A stretch of 57,935 nucleotides of DNA, from IMG/VR virus record IMGVR_UViG_3300025872_000064, positions 1-57,935 of that record. One strand, written 5' to 3'. Within the stretch, counting starts at the first letter, position 1, and each line of letters begins with the position of its first letter. The position numbers were made by a program, and so were the translations under genes. This DNA comes from a virus. Shown here piece after piece: positions 1,392-57,935 of the stretch. The notes under the pieces were generated by a model that was not told where the DNA came from, did not search any database, and was given only the letters and a program-made list of their open reading frames with translations.

Positions 1392-1939
1392 GGCTTCACC
1401 ACATAGACCACCGGGCCTTCGATCACCACCTGCGCGTGGCCGATGAAGAACTCGTCAACAGCCGCCTTCGCGCCGGGGCAGCAGTCCTCGCCGTAGTCGT
1501 CGAACACGATGATGCCGCCGGGGACGACTTGCTCGTAGAGGAACTCCAGGCACGCGGCGTAGGACTCGTAGTTGTCGACGTCCAGGTGGACGAACCGCAG
1601 GCGGCGGCCGGCGAGAACGTCGCCCGTCTCGGCCGGGAATACGCCTGGGTAAACGCTCACCCGCTTGTCGCCGACAAACATATCCATGACCGCCACGGCG
1701 CTCGTGTCACTGAAGGAGCCAATGCCCCACCTTCCGTCCAGCGTCGGATCGTGATTCGGCATTCCCGTGAAGGTGTCGAACAGGAAGACCTTCGACTGTC
1801 CGGCGTTGTCGACGATTGCTCGAGCGCTGCCACCTTTGTAGACTCCGACCTCGACGATGTCGCCGTCGAGCTTGTCCGTCGACTCGAGGAGTGCCACGAG
1901 GCAGTCAAGTTTGTAGGCGTCAATCAGCGATTCACTCAT
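1388..1939 (-). CDS. TylF/MycF-type SAM-dependent O-methyltransferase
   Basis: 183 residues. A class I SAM-binding motif appears as IVEVGVYKGGSARAI (residues 28-42). LDVDNYES, and the acidic IIVFDDYGED in the second half, match the metal-binding aspartates of the TylF/macrocin O-methyltransferase family, which methylates sugar hydroxyls. It is slightly shorter than typical members (about 200-250 aa) but has the core. Its start overlaps the ATP-grasp gene by four bases and its stop overlaps the HAD gene, so the four genes form one operon. A glycan substrate is inferred from family and neighbours. Confidence 0.85.
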   Translation of the reverse strand: MSESLIDAYKLDCLVALLESTDKLDGDIVEVGVYKGGSARAIVDNAGQSKVFLFDTFTGMPNHDPTLDGRWGIGSFSDTSAVAVMDMFVGDKRVSVYPGVFPAETGDVLAGRRLRFVHLDVDNYESYAACLEFLYEQVVPGGIIVFDDYGEDCCPGAKAAVDEFFIGHAQVVIEGPVVYVVKP

Positions 1940-2805
1940 CGGAAACTCTCCGCGTGATACCGCCGCATCGTCAGCGGCGCGATCTTCCAGGGAGGGCCGT
2001 CAACGTTGTGGCCGAGGGCCAGGGCCACAAGCGGCAGGCCAGCGGCGATCGACAGGACGCTGCCGCCGCCGAACCTCGGGTTGACCTCGATGATCTTGCC
2101 GCCTTTGAACTGCACGTTCGCCGGCCCGACGATCCCCAGGTCCGCACACACCGCCGCGGCGTCGATCAGGTAGGACACCGACGCCTCGGGGGCGAGCACC
2201 GTCGACTCGATAACTTCTCCACCCTCGACGCGGTCGCGGCTGCGGGCCACGGCGCCGCGGCACTGTCCGGCGCCCAGGAAGAGGTCGACCGACACCTCGT
2301 CGCCGTCGAGGTAGTCCTGGATCACCCACGACGCCGACATTTCGATCGTCTCGGGGCGATGCAGCACCTTCGTCCCGCGGGAGCCGTGGCCGAATCGGGG
2401 CTTCGCGAACTTCGGATACCGCGTCAGCCGCGGGGCCGGGTAGACGTCTGGGTGGTGCTCCTTCATCCAATTTGCGAAGTGCAACTTGTCGTGGCAGAGC
2501 ATCGCCACGGCGGCCGGCGAGCCGATGCACTGCTCCATGTCGCCGCACACAACCGTGGCCTCGTCCATGAGCGGGACGATATGCGTGATCTTCCGGCGAG
2601 CGGCGAACTCGATGATGTCGGGGCCGCACTCGGGATCGTCGAAGTCCATGCCTTCGACGACCTCCTTGGCGACGTCGGCCAAAGGGACGTCGATGCTCGA
2701 CTCGTAGCCGTAGACGTCGGCGTTCCTGGCGATGAACTCATTCGCCAGCGACACCCGACGTCCACCGCCTACGAACAGGACGCGGCTTTTACGAGGCTTG
2801 CGCAT
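1936..2805 (-). CDS. ATP-grasp ligase (carbamoyl-phosphate-synthase-like)
   Basis: 289 residues from ATG 2805, preferred because GGAGAAAGT directly precedes it; an upstream in-frame start would overlap the aminotransferase by 277 bases. VLFVGGGRRVSLANEF is a Rossmann-like N-terminal domain. AKPRFGHGSRGT and WVIQDYLDGDEVSVD are ATP-grasp nucleotide-binding segments, and IIEVNPRFGGG is the metal-binding end of the fold. Such enzymes couple a carboxylate to an amine; next to a DegT aminotransferase it might acylate the amino sugar made there, which is inference. It overlaps the aminotransferase by 37 bases. Confidence 0.85.
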   Translation of the reverse strand: MRKPRKSRVLFVGGGRRVSLANEFIARNADVYGYESSIDVPLADVAKEVVEGMDFDDPECGPDIIEFAARRKITHIVPLMDEATVVCGDMEQCIGSPAAVAMLCHDKLHFANWMKEHHPDVYPAPRLTRYPKFAKPRFGHGSRGTKVLHRPETIEMSASWVIQDYLDGDEVSVDLFLGAGQCRGAVARSRDRVEGGEVIESTVLAPEASVSYLIDAAAVCADLGIVGPANVQFKGGKIIEVNPRFGGGSVLSIAAGLPLVALALGHNVDGPPWKIAPLTMRRYHAESFR

Positions 2806-3869
2806 ACTTTCTCCACATCGTTCTCGGTCAGGCTCGTGTGTGTCGGCAGGACGAGGCCGTATCGGTACAACGAATCGGCGGCGTATATGCGACGGCCTGT
2901 TCTCCCAGCCCGCTGCACATGCTGGAAGTGACAGACGGGAGGAAAGATCGGTCGCGTCTCGATGCCGTCCTCGCGCATCAGTCGCTCGACATGGCGGGCG
3001 TCCATCGGTCGTCCGTATTCCTTGACGACGGCGAACGCCCAGCACCCGTGCGTGTCGTCCTTCGCGACCTCTTGGCGGCGGAAACGGTCAGGCAGGCGGG
3101 AGTTGTACCAGTCGAATACCTGACGGCGCTTCTCCATGAACTCCGACAGGCGGGAGAGTTGCGCCACGCCGATGGCGGCCTGCACCTCGGTCATCCGGTA
3201 GTTCCACCCCAGCGCGTCGTGGACGTAGCGGGTCGCCGTCATCGCCTGGCCGGCGAGGTGGGCGATCCGCTCCGCGAAGAGCTTCTCCTGCGTGCCGACG
3301 GCACCGCCCTCTCCGGTCGTGATCGTCTTCGACCCGTAGAACGAGTAGCAGTTCATGTCCGCAGCCGGCGCCCACCCGCTGCGGAGGCACCCGATGCTTT
3401 CGGCGCAGTCTTCGATGATGACGATCCGCCGGCCCGTCGAGCGGTAGTAGTCGACCTTCCAGTCATTCAGCGACGGCGCCGGCACGCCGTACAGATGCAC
3501 GGGAATGATCGCCTTCGTCTTCTCCGTCACGGCCGCCGCCATCTCGTTCAGGTCGATCGTCCACGACCTCGGATCGACGTCCACAACCACCGGCTTTGCG
3601 CCGCAGTAGAGAACCGCGTTCACCGTGGCAACAAACGTCGTCGCTGGGACGATGACTTCGTCGCCACGACCGACGCCGGCCGCCAGGAGGGCCAGGTGCA
3701 GAGCGGCCGTGCCGCTCGAGACGGCGTGCATGTGGAGGCCGTTGATGCCGCCGAAGAGCCGCTCGAACTCAGCCACGACGGGGCCACGAGTCAGTTGACC
3801 GCCGCGCAGCACATCGAGCACAGCGGTTTCTTCCGCTACGCCGATGTCAGGTTGCCCGCAGTAGATCAC
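2769..3869 (-). CDS. DegT/DnrJ/EryC1/StrS sugar aminotransferase
   Basis: 366 residues, the normal size for this PLP-dependent family. SSGTAALHLALLAAGVG near residue 51 is the cofactor phosphate region, IIEDCAESIG near 151 carries the PLP-ring aspartate, and K181 in FYGSKTITTGEGG is the Schiff-base lysine. Family members transfer an amino group from glutamate to a nucleotide-bound 3- or 4-keto sugar. No dehydratase making such a keto sugar is seen in the window, so the substrate would come from the host. First gene of the operon with the ATP-grasp, methyltransferase and HAD genes. Confidence 0.93.
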   Translation of the reverse strand: MIYCGQPDIGVAEETAVLDVLRGGQLTRGPVVAEFERLFGGINGLHMHAVSSGTAALHLALLAAGVGRGDEVIVPATTFVATVNAVLYCGAKPVVVDVDPRSWTIDLNEMAAAVTEKTKAIIPVHLYGVPAPSLNDWKVDYYRSTGRRIVIIEDCAESIGCLRSGWAPAADMNCYSFYGSKTITTGEGGAVGTQEKLFAERIAHLAGQAMTATRYVHDALGWNYRMTEVQAAIGVAQLSRLSEFMEKRRQVFDWYNSRLPDRFRRQEVAKDDTHGCWAFAVVKEYGRPMDARHVERLMREDGIETRPIFPPVCHFQHVQRAGRTGRRIYAADSLYRYGLVLPTHTSLTENDVEKVCASLVKAASCS

Positions 3870-6164: not shown

Positions 6165-6415
6165 TTCTCAAACCTCACATACAGCGGCCCGTTCTCGCCG
6201 ACGTAGGCGCCGAGGGTGTTGAACGACAGAAACTCGTCTGCCTCCTCGGGCGTCATGCCGTCGCGCTCGACGAGAACGTCGATGCACTTCTCGATGTCAT
6301 AGACGGCGACGGTCGGGTGGTGGTGGTTCACGGTGTAGCCCACCAGGGCCGCCTCGAGGCCGTCGGCCAGCAGGGCGTCGGGGTTGAGTTCGGCGAGAAG
6401 TTCGAGCGTCGTCAT
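6161..6415 (-). CDS. Conserved phage hypothetical protein
   Basis: 84 residues. The pattern LNPDALLADGLEAALVGYT, then HHPTVAVYDIEKC and a closing EEADEFLSFNTLGAYVG is a recurring small phage and bacterial protein of unknown function that I recognise by pattern but cannot name. Complete in length. It overlaps the methyltransferase and acetyltransferase-like genes by four bases each, so all three are co-expressed. Confidence 0.75.
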   Translation of the reverse strand: MTTLELLAELNPDALLADGLEAALVGYTVNHHHPTVAVYDIEKCIDVLVERDGMTPEEADEFLSFNTLGAYVGENGPLYVRFEK

Positions 6416-7548
6416 GCAAACAACCTCTCTCGCTCGACGGACTTGGCGATCCGCTCGTGCGCTAACTTGACGTACTCTGGATTCAACTCACACCCGACTC
6501 CGCTGCGGCCGAGTTTCGCTGCAACAGCAAGCGTCGTCCCAGAGCCGGCGAATGGGTCCAGCACAAGACACGGCACTGGCCTGTGCTCTTGACACTTGCA
6601 CGACGGCTGCCACCCTTTTGTCTCGACAGAGACTCCAGCGACGTCGTTCGCGCAGTGGTTTCCAGTACCCTCTTCGCCATGTCTCTTTGTGTAGGCATTG
6701 GGGCGTGGGCGTGTCAGTTCCTTTCGCTCCGTAATCCTGCCCCACGGCGATCCGCAGTGCGGACAGCAGCCCTCCTCGCTCGTGCCGGCGAGAACGCACG
6801 GCTCGACGAGGTCAGGCGGCATGGTTGCGAAGTGCGCGCCTTTGTAGGGCTTTGTCGTCACCGTCCAGACGGATCGACGGTTGCGGGTTGCCTTTTCCGT
6901 ATATGTACGCTCTTGTCTTTGTATTTTCGTCTCGCTCCCGTCAAGAACCCTCCGAGTCGCGTAGGGGATGTTTTTTGCGTCTTTATGCTTTGCTGTCTCG
7001 CTTACAGCAACCGAGTCGTAGTAATACCGCTCGCTCTTAGTCAGCATAAAAACGTACTCATGCGCCTTCGTGCAGCGATCACGCACGCTCTCTGGCATCG
7101 GGTTTGGCTTGTGCCAGATGATGTCCTGGCGCAGCCACCACCCGTCAGACTGAAGGGCGAAGGCGACTCGCCATGGGATGCCGACAAGGTCTTTGTTTTT
7201 CAGTGACTTGCACGAAAGGCCGTTCCCTTTTGGCAGTGAGGGGCACGCGACCTCTGTTGCTGCCTGGAAGGACGTAGAACCGCCACGATTCCCGTTGTAT
7301 GCGTTGTACGAATCCCCCAGGTTTACCCAGCAAGTCCCGTCCTCGCGCAGCACACGCCGCACCTCGCGGAACACCTCCACCATGCGGGCGACGTAGGCTT
7401 CCGGTGTGGACTCCAGGCCGATCTGCCCGTCATGGCCGTAGTCACGCAAACCCCAGTATGGCGGGCTTGTTACGCAGCAGTGGACGCTGTCGTCTGCGAG
7501 CGTCCGCAACCCTTCGATGCAGTCGCCTTGAATAATCCTGTGTTCCAT
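6412..7548 (-). CDS. DNA (N4/N6) methyltransferase, beta-class
   Basis: 378 residues from ATG 7548, chosen because it overlaps the upstream stop (TGATG). The catalytic motif TSPPYWGLRDYG is at residues 27-38 and the SAM-binding DPFAGSGTT at 331-339, the beta-class order (catalytic first) found in DpnA-type and CcrM-type enzymes. A CPHCGSPWG segment followed by CKCQ in the target region suggests a small zinc knuckle. It probably protects phage DNA from host restriction; no partner nuclease is adjacent. A second, shorter methyltransferase is at 56937-57773. Confidence 0.93.
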   Translation of the reverse strand: MEHRIIQGDCIEGLRTLADDSVHCCVTSPPYWGLRDYGHDGQIGLESTPEAYVARMVEVFREVRRVLREDGTCWVNLGDSYNAYNGNRGGSTSFQAATEVACPSLPKGNGLSCKSLKNKDLVGIPWRVAFALQSDGWWLRQDIIWHKPNPMPESVRDRCTKAHEYVFMLTKSERYYYDSVAVSETAKHKDAKNIPYATRRVLDGSETKIQRQERTYTEKATRNRRSVWTVTTKPYKGAHFATMPPDLVEPCVLAGTSEEGCCPHCGSPWGRITERKELTRPRPNAYTKRHGEEGTGNHCANDVAGVSVETKGWQPSCKCQEHRPVPCLVLDPFAGSGTTLAVAAKLGRSGVGCELNPEYVKLAHERIAKSVERERLFA

Positions 7549-7784
7549 CACTCCATCGCCTCCCTGACCTTCCTCGCCACCTCGGGGCTGCGAAACCAGC
7601 CCACGCTCCACGCACACTTCCGCACATCCTCGTCGTCGCCGTGTCCAATCGCGTCCAACTTCGCCACCAGAAACATCACGTTCCGCTCGAGCCGCGCGAC
7701 TCGTTCTTTCGCTTCGTCAAGCCGCCGCCGCAGGCGGCTGTTGCCCTTGATGGCTCCGGTGAGTTCGCGGCGGTAAGTCTTCAT
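7548..7784 (-). CDS. Hypothetical coiled-coil protein (78 aa)
   Basis: 78 residues. The first half (SRLRRRLDEAKERVARLERN) is a basic helix with heptad character, followed by a short conserved-looking VRKCAWSVGWFRS segment. No family is recognised. The stop shares a base with the methyltransferase start, so the two are coupled. AAGGG upstream of ATG 7784 may be the ribosome binding site and is part of the tRNA-like sequence at 7790-7880. Confidence 0.55.
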   Translation of the reverse strand: MKTYRRELTGAIKGNSRLRRRLDEAKERVARLERNVMFLVAKLDAIGHGDDEDVRKCAWSVGWFRSPEVARKVREAME

Positions 7785-45933: not shown

Positions 45934-46217
45934 CAGTTTCGCGAAAGGCGAAAATTGCCGGGGAGCAAATAGGTCATACCTCCGCGAATCCGCGTGGCTG
46001 GGGACAAGCGGTCTGCCGCCCGATCGCCCCCGACGGCGTATCCCCCACCCGTAGGGGGTGTTGTATTTTCCCCACGATTCCCGCGGCAGATGATGCGCCG
46101 CCGCGCGGCGCGCCTTGATTCGTAGACTTCCGGCGCCGTTGTCGCATCTGCTAAGTGTCCGGCCCGAAAATAATTTGAGCCGGCGCGCAAGGCTTGCCGA
46201 TTGGCAGCGTATGCTAG

Positions 46218-46247
46218 TTGACAGCCGGACATCCGGCAGGGTACATT
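46218..46247 (+). promoter_or_regulatory. Strong sigma-70-type promoter with internal operator palindrome
   Basis: TTGACA (46218-46223), 18 bases, TACATT (46242-46247). The spacer contains the perfect inverted repeat GCCGGA-CA-TCCGGC (46224-46237), well placed for a repressor. It should drive the plus-strand small-gene cluster. Confidence 0.7.
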
Positions 46248-46302
46248 GAATCAAGCCGCGGCGGAAACCGCGGCCGATACCTTGAAACGGAGAATTGAGA
46301 AT

Positions 46303-46542
46303 ATGAAACGGGCAACCTACAACGGTATGCGGGAGGAACTAGCGCATATCATCGGCGACGTTCGCATACTGTCGGGCGAGATTGTCGGGCCGTCTGATGC
46401 GACATGGCAGGACGTCGCGGGTACGCTTGCTGTCAACTTGCGTTGCCTTGCTGCCATGCTGGAAGAATGGCGCAAGGGTAACGCTGAACCGTTCTGTAGT
46501 TTTCCCGGATTGGACGACGTTGGAGTTGATGCCCGAGGCTAA
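46303..46542 (+). CDS. Cluster gene a, hypothetical (79 aa)
   Basis: 79 residues from ATG 46303; GAAACGGAG lies upstream. Mostly helical (MREELAHIIGDVRILSGEI, AVNLRCLAAMLEEWRKG). No family. First gene of the plus-strand cluster. The hairpin GCCGCGG-CGGAAA-CCGCGGC (46255-46274) stands in its leader, a simpler relative of the elements before later genes. Confidence 0.65.
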   Translation: MKRATYNGMREELAHIIGDVRILSGEIVGPSDATWQDVAGTLAVNLRCLAAMLEEWRKGNAEPFCSFPGLDDVGVDARG

Positions 46543-46560: not shown

Positions 46561-46585
46561 CCGCCGCGGCGCGTTGCCGCGGCGG
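46561..46585 (+). repeat. Intergenic hairpin before cluster gene b
   Basis: CCGCCGCGGC (46561-46570), loop GCGTT, GCCGCGGCGG (46576-46585): a perfect 10-bp stem followed by GAAACCTGAAACGGAG and the next start. Same plan (GC hairpin, GAAAC motif, ribosome binding site) as the larger elements downstream. Confidence 0.65.
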
Positions 46586-46620: not shown

Positions 46621-47007
46621 GTGGAAACCTATAGCCCCTTCATAATTTCCGCCCGTCTTTTGCCAGCCGTTGACGTCGCCGGCGCGACGGTATCGGTTGA
46701 CCCGACAAGCAACCGCGACCACTACGGGAAGCCGGAGTGGCGCTACTTTATCGACCTACCCGACGGAACCGAGCACACTGGCGGAGAGCTTTACGGGTGG
46801 GGGGACGCGGGGGAAATGCTGGAAACGCTTTTGGCGTTTCTCGGCGCTTGCGGGGAAAGCGTTAACTACCGCGACAGGACAGGCCGCGGCGGGGAAAACG
46901 CCGACATTTTTCCGCCCGAGGTTGCGGCATGGTGCGCCGCTAATTCAGACGCGCTTTCGGTTGCGTCTTTTGAGTGTGAGGAAGCAAACCGCGCGCGGCG
47001 GGAATAG
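46621..47007 (+). CDS. Cluster gene b, hypothetical acidic protein (128 aa)
   Basis: 128 residues starting with GTG; GAAACGGAG lies 13 bases upstream. The protein is acidic with RYFIDLPDGTEHTGGELYGWG and CAANSDALSVASFECEE segments. No family recognised. GTGGAAACC forms its first three codons, so the recurrent GTGGAAAC motif here lies inside the gene start. Confidence 0.6.
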   Translation: METYSPFIISARLLPAVDVAGATVSVDPTSNRDHYGKPEWRYFIDLPDGTEHTGGELYGWGDAGEMLETLLAFLGACGESVNYRDRTGRGGENADIFPPEVAAWCAANSDALSVASFECEEANRARRE

Positions 47008-47010
47008 TCC

Positions 47011-47079
47011 GGCCGCCACCGCAACCCCACGGCGCCCGCGGCCGTGGGGCGACGGTGGCGGCCCGATGGCCGGGCCGCC
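47011..47079 (+). repeat. Structured intergenic element 1 (two overlapping hairpins)
   Basis: Hairpin 1: GGCCGCCACCG (47011-47021) with CGGTGGCGGCC (47053-47063), internal loop CAA/CGA, inner stem CCCCACGGC/GCCGTGGGG, loop GCCCGCG. Hairpin 2: GGCGGCCCG (47057-47065) with CGGGCCGCC (47071-47079). The 3' arm of hairpin 1 overlaps the 5' arm of hairpin 2, so they exclude each other. Followed by CGTGGAAACC and the start of gene c. Confidence 0.8.
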
Positions 47080-47114
47080 CGAACGTGGAAACCTTGAAAC
47101 GGAGACGGGAAACA

Positions 47115-47462
47115 ATGCTGCCAACCCCGAAAACAATCGCGGCCCGTATCGGCTGCCCGATGGAAACCGCCCGCGCTATCCGCCGGGCGATTGAAGCGCA
47201 CGAGCGCAGCGGCGCCCCGTTCGCGGCCGGAACCCTAGACGCTATCTCGGAAATACTGGGGCCGGGGGCATACGGGGCAGAGCTTATCCGCCCCGGCGAC
47301 GGGCCGCGGTCCCATTCGATTGAATACGTCAACCGTGGGGACACTTATGACCCCACGATTCTATATCTCGACGGCGTTTCCCACGGCGGCCGGGCGACGG
47401 GCCGCGGGCGGTGGGCAGTGGGAACGTGGGGAGACATAGTGGAACGGGGGCGCTACGAATAA
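47115..47462 (+). CDS. Cluster gene c, hypothetical with helix-turn-helix-like N-terminus (115 aa)
   Basis: 115 residues from ATG 47115; GGAGACGGGAAACA precedes it. The first 45 residues (TIAARIGCPMETARAIRRAIEAHER) look like a helix-turn-helix, and the rest is a small Gly-rich domain (GAELIRPGDGPRSHSIEYV). A DNA-binding role is possible but unproven. Confidence 0.6.
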   Translation: MLPTPKTIAARIGCPMETARAIRRAIEAHERSGAPFAAGTLDAISEILGPGAYGAELIRPGDGPRSHSIEYVNRGDTYDPTILYLDGVSHGGRATGRGRWAVGTWGDIVERGRYE

Positions 47463-47473
47463 ACCGCCCGGCT

Positions 47474-47529
47474 CCCCCGCAACCGGCGCCGCCCGCGGGC
47501 GCCGGCGACGGGGGCGCCGCGCGGCGCCC
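47474..47529 (+). repeat. Structured intergenic element 2
   Basis: Hairpin 1: CCCCCG (47474-47479) with CGGGGG (47509-47514), internal loop CAA/CGA, inner stem CCGGCGCC/GGCGCCGG, loop GCCCGCG identical to element 1 although the stems differ in sequence. Hairpin 2: perfect palindrome GGGCGCCGCGCGGCGCCC (47512-47529) overlapping the 3' arm of hairpin 1. Then CGTGGAAACGTGGAAACGGAG and gene d. Confidence 0.8.
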
Positions 47530-47562
47530 GGAACGTGGAAACGTGGAAACGGAGTCTAGATC

Positions 47563-47871
47563 ATGCAAACCGAACCCCTACGCTATCTTCGCGACGTCGC
47601 GCCGGATGCGAAAATCTATCGTTCCCCAGTCCGGCCCGACGGGTGGGGGGGAAACTATCCGGGACAGGGCGCCGACGGGTACGGGCGGAAAATATCGACG
47701 GACTACGTCGCCCGATACGGGGGGCGTACCCGACGGGTCTACGTTTGCCAATTCTCCAACGCTGGCACGGCCTACGTTATCGACGGGGGGCGGTGGGCAA
47801 TCGTCGATAACCTCCCGCTAGACGTTCCGCCGCTGCCGCCCGAGTATCGCGGGCGGATTGTCGCCCGATAG
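47563..47871 (+). CDS. Cluster gene d, hypothetical basic protein (102 aa)
   Basis: 102 residues; ATG 47563 with GGAG 11 bases upstream. Tyr- and Gly-rich (GYGRKISTDYVARYGGRTRRVYVCQFSN in part), probably a small beta domain. No family recognised. Preceded and followed by structured elements. Confidence 0.6.
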   Translation: MQTEPLRYLRDVAPDAKIYRSPVRPDGWGGNYPGQGADGYGRKISTDYVARYGGRTRRVYVCQFSNAGTAYVIDGGRWAIVDNLPLDVPPLPPEYRGRIVAR

Positions 47872-47880
47872 CGCCGGCCC

Positions 47881-47922
47881 CGCGCTAACCCCCGGCCGTG
47901 GAAACGGGCGGGGGCGTGCGCG
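47881..47922 (+). repeat. Structured intergenic element 3 (GNRA-capped)
   Basis: CGCGC/GCGCG outer stem, internal loop TAA/CGT, stem CCCCCG/CGGGGG, then CCGT-GGAA-ACGG: the GTGGAAAC motif itself forms a hairpin capped by a GGAA (GNRA-type) tetraloop. The motif recurs at 47950 before gene e. Confidence 0.75.
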
Positions 47923-47970
47923 CGGCCGCCGCGGTGGCGACCCCGATTGTGGAAACGGGAGGAAATGACG

Positions 47971-48342
47971 ATGGAAACGGAAACGGTACATTGTGACGGT
48001 TGCGGCGCGGATTGCGTCCCCACGGGTTGCACAACCGGATACGGGCGAACGGCCGACGGGCGGCGGTTGTGCTTTTCATGCTGCGACGCGCGAGAACGGG
48101 CGGATTTTGCGGCGGCCGATACATACTGCGCGTACGTCTCCGGCGACGGCCGGAGTATTTCAACGTGGCCGGGGGGCAAGCTGGCAACCGTAACCTATTC
48201 CCGCCGCCACCGTGGCGGTTTCGGTGGGGAGTATTTCACGGTTGATGCCACGGCGCCCGACGGTAGCCGCTGGTACGGGCGGGGCGGCGGCCCCGGTATG
48301 TTCGTCCGGCTGAAACGGCGCAAGGCTACAGGCCGAGCATAA
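47971..48342 (+). CDS. Cluster gene e, zinc-finger-like protein (123 aa)
   Basis: 123 residues from ATG 47971; GGGAGG stands 8 bases upstream. The N-terminus has CDGCGADCVPTGC and CFSCCDARE, enough Cys for a zinc ribbon. The C-terminal half (GGFGGEYFTVDATAPDGSRWYGRG) is a small beta sheet. It may bind nucleic acid or protein; function unknown. Confidence 0.65.
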   Translation: METETVHCDGCGADCVPTGCTTGYGRTADGRRLCFSCCDARERADFAAADTYCAYVSGDGRSISTWPGGKLATVTYSRRHRGGFGGEYFTVDATAPDGSRWYGRGGGPGMFVRLKRRKATGRA

Positions 48343-48343
48343 C

Positions 48344-48414
48344 CGGCCCCGCGGCGCCCCCCGACGGTGGAAACCGGCGGGGGCAACCGCGGGGCCGTCA
48401 ACGGGCGGCCCGTT
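48344..48414 (+). repeat. Structured intergenic element 4 (GNRA-capped)
   Basis: Outer stem CGGCCCCGCGG (48344-48354) with CCGCGGGGCCG (48387-48397), internal loop CGC/CAA, stem CCCCCG/CGGGGG, tip CGGT-GGAA-ACCG. A second hairpin AACGGG-CGG-CCCGTT (48400-48414) follows, then CGTGGAAACCGG and gene f. Confidence 0.8.
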
Positions 48415-48471
48415 CGTGGAAACCGGCACGCGCCGGCACGGGGGGAATTTATCTATCGGGAGGGTTTCACA

Positions 48472-48699
48472 ATGCGGAAAGTATCGCGGTACGATTTTGG
48501 TTGCGGGGCCGTGGAGAGAATCGCCCGGCCGGCGGGGGAAGCGACTATTACGATGGAGCACGGCGCCTATATCGTCCGGCGGGCGCCGTGGCATACCGCC
48601 GGATACCGTGTGGTGCCGTGCCGTACCGTCCGGGAGGCGCGGCGGCTTGCGGCCGCGCTTGCGGCTGGGAAGCCGGCCGAGCGTAGGGGGGACCGCTAA
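48472..48699 (+). CDS. Cluster gene f, hypothetical basic protein (75 aa)
   Basis: 75 residues from ATG 48472, with GGGAGGG upstream. Pattern: MRKVSRYDFGCGAVERIARP, then HGAYIVRRAPWHTAGYRVV and an Ala/Arg-rich helix. Its middle resembles gene g (YHVRGADGYRRAGVILGG) in general plan. Not recognised. Confidence 0.6.
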   Translation: MRKVSRYDFGCGAVERIARPAGEATITMEHGAYIVRRAPWHTAGYRVVPCRTVREARRLAAALAAGKPAERRGDR

Positions 48700-48701
48700 A
48701 C

Positions 48702-48770
48702 CGCCCCGCCCGCAACCCCCGTCCGGCGAAACCGGCGGGGGCGACGGGCGGGGCGCCAACGTGGCGCCCC
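48702..48770 (+). repeat. Structured intergenic element 5
   Basis: Outer stem CGCCCCGCCCG (48702-48712) with CGGGCGGGGCG (48745-48755), internal loop CAA/CGA, stem CCCCCG/CGGGGG, tip CCGG-CGAAA-CCGG. Overlapping second hairpin GGGGCGCCA-ACG-TGGCGCCCC (48750-48770). Then CGTGGAAACCG and gene g. Confidence 0.8.
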
Positions 48771-48824: not shown

Positions 48825-49055
48825 ATGGAAAACTGGAAACTAGAGCGCGCCGGATGCGGGCGCTACCATGTTCGCGGCGCTGACGGCTACCGTCGGGCGG
48901 GTGTGATTCTGGGCGGAAACCGCCGCTACCTTGTCGAGATAGCCGGCCGAACGTGGCCGGGATATTTTCCGTCGGCGCGGGCCGCCGGGGCGGCGCTTGT
49001 CAATCATCACAACACGGCGCCCGGCGGCTGGCCGGTCGTCCATCCAGCACAGTAA
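48825..49055 (+). CDS. Cluster gene g, hypothetical (76 aa)
   Basis: 76 residues; GGGAG lies 11 bases upstream of ATG 48825. Contains GAALVNHHNTAPGGWPVV at its end and two short strands rich in Arg and Gly. No family. Region 49056-49273 after it holds decayed GTGGAAAC copies and a promoter. Confidence 0.6.
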   Translation: MENWKLERAGCGRYHVRGADGYRRAGVILGGNRRYLVEIAGRTWPGYFPSARAAGAALVNHHNTAPGGWPVVHPAQ

Positions 49056-50463: not shown

Positions 50464-50766
50464 ATGAAGATCGAAGGGTTCAACGACGGGGATCGTGCCT
50501 GGGCGGCGTCGGTGTACGTCAAGGACGGGCTGGGCAGCGAGCCGGCGTCGGCGCTGGCCTATGCCAGCGAGGTGACGATCGTGATGGCGGCCGGGGGCAT
50601 CGTGCAGGAGGACGGTCGGCCGCCCCGCGTCAGCGGAGTCGGCGAGACGTTCCACCAGACGCAGCAGCAGGCCCGAGAGTGGGCGGCGGCTGAACTCCGC
50701 AGGAGCGCCGCCAACCTGTACCGGCAGGCCGAGGAACTGGCCGAGCCGCGCGTGGTGACCGTATGA
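50464..50766 (+). CDS. Cluster gene l, hypothetical (100 aa)
   Basis: 100 residues from ATG 50464, with AGGAG upstream. Beta start (KIEGFNDGDRAWAASVYVKD) and a C-terminal helix (QQQAREWAAAELRRSAANL). Not recognised. It starts a three-gene unit (l, m, n) with overlapping ATGA junctions. Confidence 0.65.
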   Translation: MKIEGFNDGDRAWAASVYVKDGLGSEPASALAYASEVTIVMAAGGIVQEDGRPPRVSGVGETFHQTQQQAREWAAAELRRSAANLYRQAEELAEPRVVTV

Positions 50767-51035
50767 TCTGCCTCGTTCGAGATACCTGGAGGGCCGTGCT
50801 CGTCGTGGTCGTCGCCGTGCTGCTTCGCGGAGTCTTCGCGGAGCGGCCGGCGGCGCTGCCGGCACCCGTGGCCCCTGCGTGGCAACCGGCGGCCGTCCAG
50901 TGGTCGCCCCCGACCGTGGCAACCGGAGCGTGGCAACCCATGCCCGCCCCGGCCGTGGAAACCCAAGGCCCGATTCGCCGTGTCGCCAGAGAACTCGTAG
51001 ACTTGTCCGAAGCCGTTTTAGGAGTGGTTCGATGA
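50763..51035 (+). CDS. Cluster gene m, single-pass membrane protein (90 aa)
   Basis: 90 residues. Hydrophobic helix VLVVVVAVLLRGVFAE near residues 12-27 acts as anchor or signal. It is followed by a Pro-rich external segment (PAALPAPVAPAWQP) and a short helix. Resembles a spanin-like or envelope protein in layout; no identification. ATGA overlaps at both ends. Confidence 0.6.
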   Translation: MICLVRDTWRAVLVVVVAVLLRGVFAERPAALPAPVAPAWQPAAVQWSPPTVATGAWQPMPAPAVETQGPIRRVARELVDLSEAVLGVVR

Positions 51036-56936: not shown

Positions 56937-57773
56937 CTACGCCACGTCCATCGGCAACGCTTGTTGCGCCAGCCGTTTCCTGCTGATCTCGACGTATTCA
57001 GGGTTCACCTCGATCCCGATGAACCTCCGCCCCGTCTCACTCGCCATCATCGCCGTCGTGCCGCTGCCGCTGAATGGGTCGAGCACCACGTCGCCTGAGT
57101 TGCTCCAGCTCACGATATGGTCGCGGGCCAGCCGCTCAGGAAACTGTGCTGGATGAAACCTCTTGCGGCTGCTCGTCTCTGGTGCCACGTTCCAAACATT
57201 GAACCGTATTCCGTGCTCTGCCATCCGCTTCCCTTCATGTGATTTGCGGATCAGATCACCGCTCGGCAGGCGAATCGTTCCAGCCTTTCCGATTGCACCA
57301 GCGTAAACGTTCTTCCGATCCCGAATCGGGTTGAACGTCTTCGGCTTTCCTTTGCTGAAAACGAGCATGTATTCACTGCTCGGCCCGTATCGAACACGAA
57401 CCGACCCTACTCCAGTGAAGCACCCTTTGTTCCAGATCATCGTGTCGTGAAGTCGCAGGCCGATTCCCTTGAAATGCAGCGCCTGCGAAAAACTCGTCCC
57501 TGTCTCGTCGCCGTCTTTCGTCTCGTCGTTGACCACCCACACAATGACCCCGCCCGGCTTAAGCAGCCGCTTCAGATTCCACGCCACCCCGTAGAAATCC
57601 CACGAGTGGCCGCCGTAGGTGCGAAGGTCATCGTATGGCGGGCTCGTCACCACGAGGTCAATCGACTCGCTCGGCATCTGCCGCATCACTTCGCAGTTAT
57701 CCCCGCAAATGATTTGATCCAGCGGGAGAGAACCAGCCGATGCAACGGACGGCCCTGCTACGTCATGTGTCAT
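56937..57773 (-). CDS. DNA methyltransferase, beta-class (second copy)
   Basis: 278 residues from ATG 57773; AGAGGA lies 7 bases upstream. VVTSPPYDDLRTYG (catalytic TSPPY) comes before VVLDPFSGSGTTAMMA (SAM binding), again the beta-class order. Compared with the enzyme at 6412-7548 it lacks the Cys knuckle and is 100 residues shorter. The N-terminal ~15 residues are encoded by attC-like palindrome 5. The target sequence is not predictable by eye. It behaves as a gene cassette. Confidence 0.92.
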   Translation of the reverse strand: MTHDVAGPSVASAGSLPLDQIICGDNCEVMRQMPSESIDLVVTSPPYDDLRTYGGHSWDFYGVAWNLKRLLKPGGVIVWVVNDETKDGDETGTSFSQALHFKGIGLRLHDTMIWNKGCFTGVGSVRVRYGPSSEYMLVFSKGKPKTFNPIRDRKNVYAGAIGKAGTIRLPSGDLIRKSHEGKRMAEHGIRFNVWNVAPETSSRKRFHPAQFPERLARDHIVSWSNSGDVVLDPFSGSGTTAMMASETGRRFIGIEVNPEYVEISRKRLAQQALPMDVA

Positions 57774-57814
57774 GGTGAGTCCTCTGGTGGCCGCCGTTGA
57801 TCTTCCGTGTTCTC
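57728..57814. repeat. attC-like imperfect palindrome 5
   Basis: GAGAAC (57728-57733) pairs with GTTCTC (57809-57814). Inner arms CAACGGACGGC and GCCGCCGTTG pair with one extra base; the centre is a 35-base loop, longer than in the others. The left arm (AACCAGCCGATGCAACGGAC) closely matches the other four. The stop of the junction gene starts at the next base, 57815. Confidence 0.55.
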
Positions 57815-57935
57815 TCACTTCGTCCGTTCAATCAACGCCCGCAGCGTGGACACGACATTCGCCTCGCGCCTTTCATCATCGGCGTCTGCTTTGTCGCAAA
57901 GAGCAGCACACTCGCAAGTGAATATCGCTTCCTCA
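57815..57935 (-). CDS. Cys-rich 60-aa protein, C-terminal part (gene crosses the window junction)
   Basis: Continuation of the gene that starts at base 62: it enters at 57935 with REEAIFTCECAALC and ends NVVSTLRALIERTK, TGA at 57815-57817. Two more Cys clusters (CECAALC) strengthen the metal-binding reading. The exact frame match across the ends is unlikely to occur by chance in this length. Confidence 0.75.
   Translation of the reverse strand, partial: EEAIFTCECAALCDKADADDERREANVVSTLRALIERTK

Follow-up and report, generated by a model that had tools for sequence, protein, structure and literature searches.

Conserved two-hairpin RNA elements between small genes of uncultured phages as candidate intercistronic processing sites

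The small-gene region of a group of uncultured phages carries a repeated, structured RNA element in which, almost certainly, the shape is conserved by selection and the sequence of the stems is not. It represents a well-supported RNA family without an entry in Rfam. In the shared plan, an 11-bp outer stem (P1) is followed by a 3x3 internal loop and a capped inner stem, and a second hairpin (P3) uses the 3' strand of P1 again; downstream of P3 come first the motif GTGGAAAC, then a ribosome site and finally the following gene. The reading that we favour is that the elements are intercistronic RNA processing sites of the RNase III type belonging to a phage small-gene operon, one in which we infer the cleavage and to which we give somewhat less than even confidence. 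The findings suggest a rule for how such phages derive separate stable messages from one operon, and that gene-cassette turnover in a variable region of phage genomes can follow repeated RNA elements.

The element was described from a 57,935-base virus record, analysed over its whole length (the window). TerL, portal, protease and capsid genes are located on the minus strand, and neither tRNA genes nor Rfam matches were found in the window. A run of small genes, a to g, occupies the plus strand from 46.2 kb onward, and family searches provided no function for any of their products. A promoter scan identified a sigma70-like promoter for this operon (TTGACA-18-TACATT, 46218-46247, plus strand), and 7 nt past its -10 hexamer lies a plus-strand leader hairpin of the P3 type (46255-46274), at the position expected for the 5' end of the mRNA of gene a (46303-46542, 79 aa, without a family match). 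Gene b (46621-47007, 128 aa, GTG start) matches phrog_21648, a family without assigned function, and is preceded on the plus strand by a P3-type hairpin with a GCGTT loop, recognised in the sequence (46561-46585), with neither P1/P2 nor an evident promoter. These are the simpler hairpins that a preceding sequence-only reading had noticed before genes a and b. The run continues with gene c (47115-47462, 115 aa, without a family match), gene d (47563-47871, 102 aa, matching phrog_3436, also without assigned function), gene e (47971-48342, 123 aa), gene f (48472-48699, 75 aa) and gene g (48825-49055, 76 aa). In four close relatives (L004, L014, L018 and L027) the contigs start no more than 2-3 nt from window position 46000, up to which L027 is 100% identical to the window; these coinciding starts suggest that a physical genome end, for instance a cos site, adjoins terL there, with the small-gene region just past it.

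Five elements, all on the plus strand, occupy the junctions from gene b to gene g. In element 1 the P1/P2 hairpin (47011-47063, 3 nt past the gene b stop, folding z-score -3.6) consists of the 11-bp outer stem, a CAA/CGA loop and a 9-bp inner stem closed by a GCCCGCG heptaloop; its P3 (GGCGGCCCG / CGGGCCGCC, 47057-47079) has 7 nt in common with the P1 3' arm. Element 2 (P1/P2 at 47469-47519, 6 nt past the gene c stop) has an 8-bp inner stem, the same GCCCGCG loop and the P3 GGGCGCC / GGCGCCC at 47512-47529. Element 3, 3 nt past the gene d stop, shows one C.C mismatch in P1, a TAA/CGT loop and a GGAA tip; its second hairpin, GGCCGCC / GGCGACC at 47924-47942, is weak and imperfect and was recognised by eye, the scoring script having picked another short stem. 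Element 4 (P1/P2 at 48344-48397, 1 nt past the gene e stop, z -3.6) carries the variant CGC/CAA loop, a GGAA tip and an imperfect P3 that includes a G.U wobble (GGGCCGTC / GGCGGCCC, 48392-48411). Element 5 (P1/P2 at 48702-48755, 2 nt past the gene f stop) combines the CAA/CGA loop with a CGAAA tip, and its P3 is GGGGCGCCA / TGGCGCCCC at 48750-48770.

A strict two-stem descriptor (outer stem of at least 6 bp, 3x3 loop, inner stem of at least 6 bp) matched the 57.9 kb at elements 1, 2, 4 and 5 and nowhere else, far above the chance expectation (a mean of 0.03 when the region was dinucleotide-shuffled, and 0.1 per window shuffle); these four are present as the sequence-only reading had described them. 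Element 3 belongs to the set as well, and the interval previously given to it, 47881-47922, is too short, missing part of an 11-position outer stem that extends over 47875-47928. A covariance model scores all five: 78.7 bits for element 3, 88.4 bits for element 5, and 39.7 and 36.5 bits for elements 1 and 2, which were outside its building set. RNA folding z-scores at the five junctions range from -1.6 to -3.6, modest at those richest in GC because their shuffles fold well too. The leader motif GTGGAAAC follows element 1 at 47085-47092 (plus strand), with other leader copies at 47535, 47949, 48416 and 48776, and further copies at 47898 and 48367 fall inside the element 3 and element 4 tips; all 12 matches are on the plus strand, against 1.45 expected counting both strands.

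The family extends well beyond the window. A TerL search led to 80 viral contigs, and in those that extend into the small-gene region the hairpins recur, as does GTGGAAAC, with unchanged strand orientation to terL. The resulting catalogue holds 35 distinct copies, namely the five of the window and those of related IMG/VR contigs. Of the 35, 28 have CAA/CGA as their internal loop, and the inner stem is capped by a GNRA tip (15/35), an AAA triloop (7/35) or GCCCGCG (6/35). Of 48 junctions listed, nearly all have a P1 that starts about 0-6 nt past the upstream stop codon and runs in the coding sense; for a few of the junctions the automated calls chose a wrong reading frame. The exact pattern AACCCCCG..CGGGGGCGACGG matched 21 IMG/VR stretches, most of them clear copies, and 55 stretches in bacterial genomes, none of which had the context of the element on inspection. 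Matches of GGCGACGG..CGTGGAAAC in viral contigs were mostly chance coding matches with a few true copies among them, and a heptaloop pattern added just a few true copies, one of them, in L276, more distant.

Selection on folding is apparent in the way the stems vary. Across the catalogue 344 of 385 P1 cells are paired (89%), against 76% when 3' arms were shuffled among copies, and none of 5000 shuffles reached the observed value; for 11 non-redundant copies the figures are 88% and 68% (0/5000), with the caveat that stem-requiring descriptors served to find or retain many of the copies and that kinship among the sequences inflates shuffle tests. The alignment-based covariation score of P1 is 0.163, the shuffle mean 0.037 and the value of slid versions at most 0.039. 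Heptaloop-class inner stems such as CCCCACGGC, CCGGCGCC, CCGCCGGC and CCGCACGGC differ in sequence and are each fully paired around GCCCGCG, and the relative of element 2 in L024 has a C-G pair changed to T-A. Since distinct G-C/C-G, A-T and G-T types occur at the same positions, selection by the analyst or inheritance alone is unlikely to account for the pairing. The compensatory stem differences reported from five copies, and the pairing beyond chance that covariation statistics were proposed to detect, are thus confirmed on a much wider basis. G.U and A.C mismatches are similarly frequent in P1 (10 vs 8, one conserved A.C position set aside), so strand asymmetry alone is no proof of RNA and leaves the strand undecided.

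The hairpins could instead act as DNA, either as a putative operator resembling the ESAS of mycobacteriophages or as a recombination site for cassette shuffling. The elements are indeed repeated across the small-gene region, and junctions are gained and lost at them: L024 lacks the gene d segment, so that a hairpin like element 2 stands directly before gene e (window 47465-47960) and homology to the window resumes within element 3, and L102 has one gene-plus-element more than L103. Common repeats can, however, recombine passively, the arms vary freely with pairing kept, unlike those of a protein-bound palindrome, the orientation is always that of the genes, and the GNRA tips of 15 of the 35 copies appear in the coding sense. 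As no Pfam integrase or recombinase match was obtained among the 20 larger proteins scanned either, a site acting in the DNA is improbable.

Among phages, the nearest described arrangement is the SAS/ESAS of cluster K mycobacteriophages, in which a short start-associated motif and a longer inverted repeat precede a subset of small genes (PMC3203893). The SAS is a 13-bp motif, GGGATAGGAGCCC, and the ESAS has 17-bp repeats that are conserved in sequence, both in many copies per genome (PMC3203893); their authors found little support for RNA base pairing of the ESAS arms. The present elements resemble them as multi-copy combinations of a short motif and an inverted repeat before small genes, but the motif is GTGGAAAC instead of GGGATAGGAGCCC, the element adjoins the upstream stop codon, and RNA pairing is kept by compensatory change. 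An ESAS-type operator was accordingly rejected as the main reading, given the different motif and the maintained pairing.

Small genes flanked by paired structures are also found in integrons. There, attC sites place two stems around an unpaired spacer beside the single small genes of cassettes, and the elements share the two stems, the unpaired spacer and the adjacent single small gene. They differ in carrying RNA-type tips and leaders and, as inspection showed, in lacking the paired RYYYAAC/GTTRRRY boxes; the setting differs too, no integrase occurring among the 20 larger proteins scanned. An attC site was discarded as a candidate because no GTTRRRY was seen opposite CAAC in the 3' arms of the 35 copies inspected.

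The second hairpin, P3, overlaps the P1 3' arm by 3-9 nt. The overlap reported by the sequence-only reading for elements 1, 2 and 5 is exact, and an imperfect version occurs in elements 3 and 4. The pairing score of the P3 tail with the P1 3' arm is 647, against 582 +- 21 with swapped copies (0/2000), and masking of the P1 5' arm increases the predicted pairing of P3 on average from 0.19 to 0.71. P3 covariation and the masking result together indicate that mutual exclusion of the two hairpins is a conserved property and not a coincidence of five copies. The earlier proposal of a conserved RNA with mutually exclusive hairpins is in this respect supported, and its comparison with switches or attenuators fares less well: no terminator U-tract follows the elements on the plus strand, and the predicted unpaired probability of the ribosome site in the two folds is nearly the same (mean of 0.60 vs 0.65).

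The hairpins might still form a two-state RNA coupled to translation, in which a ribosome at the upstream stop codon would cover the 11-nt 5' arm of P1 and release the 3' arm, P3 would form, and translating one gene would set the fold ahead of the next. A ribosome footprint at a stop codon would reach the 5' arm of P1, which begins some 0-6 nt past the stop, and both the release of P3 on masking and the selection on the common P1/P3 strand agree with this. On the other hand, compact junctions alone would place a hairpin beside the stop, and with ribosome-site access barely changed and no terminator there is no visible switch output; such a coupled RNA is therefore unlikely, and a ribosome-site switch was dropped as the main reading for the same similarity of access. 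Two GC-rich, mutually exclusive hairpins ahead of genes also recall a transcription attenuator or antiterminator, with P1 and P3 acting as terminator and antiterminator, or an RNA bound by the polymerase. This is very improbable, since the scan shows no U-tracted plus-strand hairpin among the elements and the tails past P3 are listed without a U-run; an intrinsic terminator was likewise rejected as the main reading, the hairpins having no following U-run.

The distribution of P3 provides a further clue. Many other genes of related phages are preceded by P3 without P1/P2, and a promoter-like site was found upstream of 15 of 39 such P3-only leaders, against none of 26 P1/P2 leaders (p = 1.6e-4) and a background of 0.8% of random 100-nt pieces. 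The promoters before P3-only leaders are TTGAC-type and often lie just upstream of P3; the 24 of 39 leaders without a promoter call, though they include some that are misclassified or spurious, make the split imperfect, as does gene b of the window, and the lack of promoters at P1/P2 junctions is in part due to their very GC-rich sequence. P3 with GTGGAAAC thus looks like the ordinary 5' leader of these phages, with P1/P2 added at leaders that lack their own promoter, and this appears to be a new clue to the role of the element. Some promoter-like sites of small genes (L093:350-400, L101:220-280 and the minus strand of L024 near 5300) have a core near GTGCCGATGCTA between the -35 and -10 hexamers, perhaps a phage-specific promoter type.

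P1/P2 junctions are intercistronic within same-strand gene runs, with no promoter detected, and their duplex extends over about two helical turns, made of the 11 positions of P1 and an inner stem of at least 8 pairs and broken by the 3x3 loop. Adjacency to stop codons, the promoter split and this helix geometry favour RNA processing over a switch or attenuator. RNase III cuts leave a 5' phosphate and a 2-nt 3' overhang. In such a processing site the RNase III of the host, or a double-strand endonuclease equivalent to it, would cut the 3' strand near the internal loop, leaving the inner hairpin as the end of the upstream mRNA. For the downstream mRNA the start would be at about CGACGGGCGGGCCG..., near CGACGGG; this mRNA could no longer form P1 and would refold into the P3 leader, acquiring the same protected 5' end as promoter-driven genes. 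The overlap of the hairpins would let one strand serve before and after cleavage, and cutting of the long message would give each gene its own stable mRNA. That the elements thereby constitute a novel type of cis-acting phage RNA, a processing element that reuses one strand, first in the cleavage hairpin and later, refolded, as the standard 5' leader, is a more tentative proposal; if true, each gene of a polycistron would obtain the end structure of a promoter-driven mRNA.

Processing of this kind is well known in phage T7, whose early mRNA is cut by RNase III at five sites to yield functional mRNAs (PMC4858673). The hairpin of the R1.1 site, 60 nt in length, contains a 4/5 internal loop, and a single RNase III cut divides it into 47 and 13 nt (PMC6121014, PMC4858673). 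Like the T7 sites, the elements are intercistronic hairpins of about 54-60 nt in polycistronic phage RNA; as in R1.1, upper and lower stems flank an internal loop, and the 14 nt found 3' of the inner stem correspond to the 13-14 nt 3' of a cut that is known in T7 and proposed here. Unlike R1.1, the elements have a symmetric 3x3 loop, a conserved CAA/CGA and a very GC-rich sequence, and their 3' arm refolds into a leader hairpin with GTGGAAAC. The T7 site may accordingly be regarded as a functional analogue by likeness of shape, from which we infer cleavage without claiming membership.

Hairpins at gene ends may also simply protect mRNA. REP sequences are stable palindromic hairpins located after genes within operons, a trait shared by the elements, and P1/P2 might be a REP-like 3' hairpin that blocks exonucleases, fused in tight space to a 5' leader hairpin, with neither specific cleavage nor switching. 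Very stable hairpins immediately past stop codons and a P3 near the expected mRNA 5' ends would suit such passive stabilisers. Yet REP copies keep their sequence, whereas the elements keep shape and vary in stem sequence, and passive protection leaves unexplained the near-fixed geometry of 11 bp, 3x3 loop and inner stem, the conservation of CAA/CGA (28/35) and the sharing of a strand by P1 and P3; we consider it quite unlikely.

The sequence-only reading knew of no described element with this plan, and this remains so: Rfam, at the gathering threshold and at E<=1, gave nothing relevant to the element, and no description was found in the literature searched, which leaves out most subscription journals. 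The covariance-model search that it had proposed for phage and planctomycete genomes was productive on the phage side, with matches in six phage records, and the same tool gave none in 392 planctomycete genomes, a large search in which stricter filters applied. TerL shares only 37% identity with its best match among planctomycete prophages and about 38% with its best match among named phages. A planctomycete host is hence unsupported.

Other features of the window were noted in passing. The stretches 1936-3869, 6412-7617 and 56937-57818 encode a DegT-type aminotransferase, an ATP-grasp protein and two N4/N6 DNA methylases. A small reading frame at 50763-51035 contains GTGGMAAC-type repeats (CCCCCGACCGTGGCAACC, CCCCGGCCGTGGAAACC), with arrays like these also in L006 (about 5924-5737) and L035 (about 7594-7506); to judge from these repeats, the motif seems to multiply outside leaders as well.
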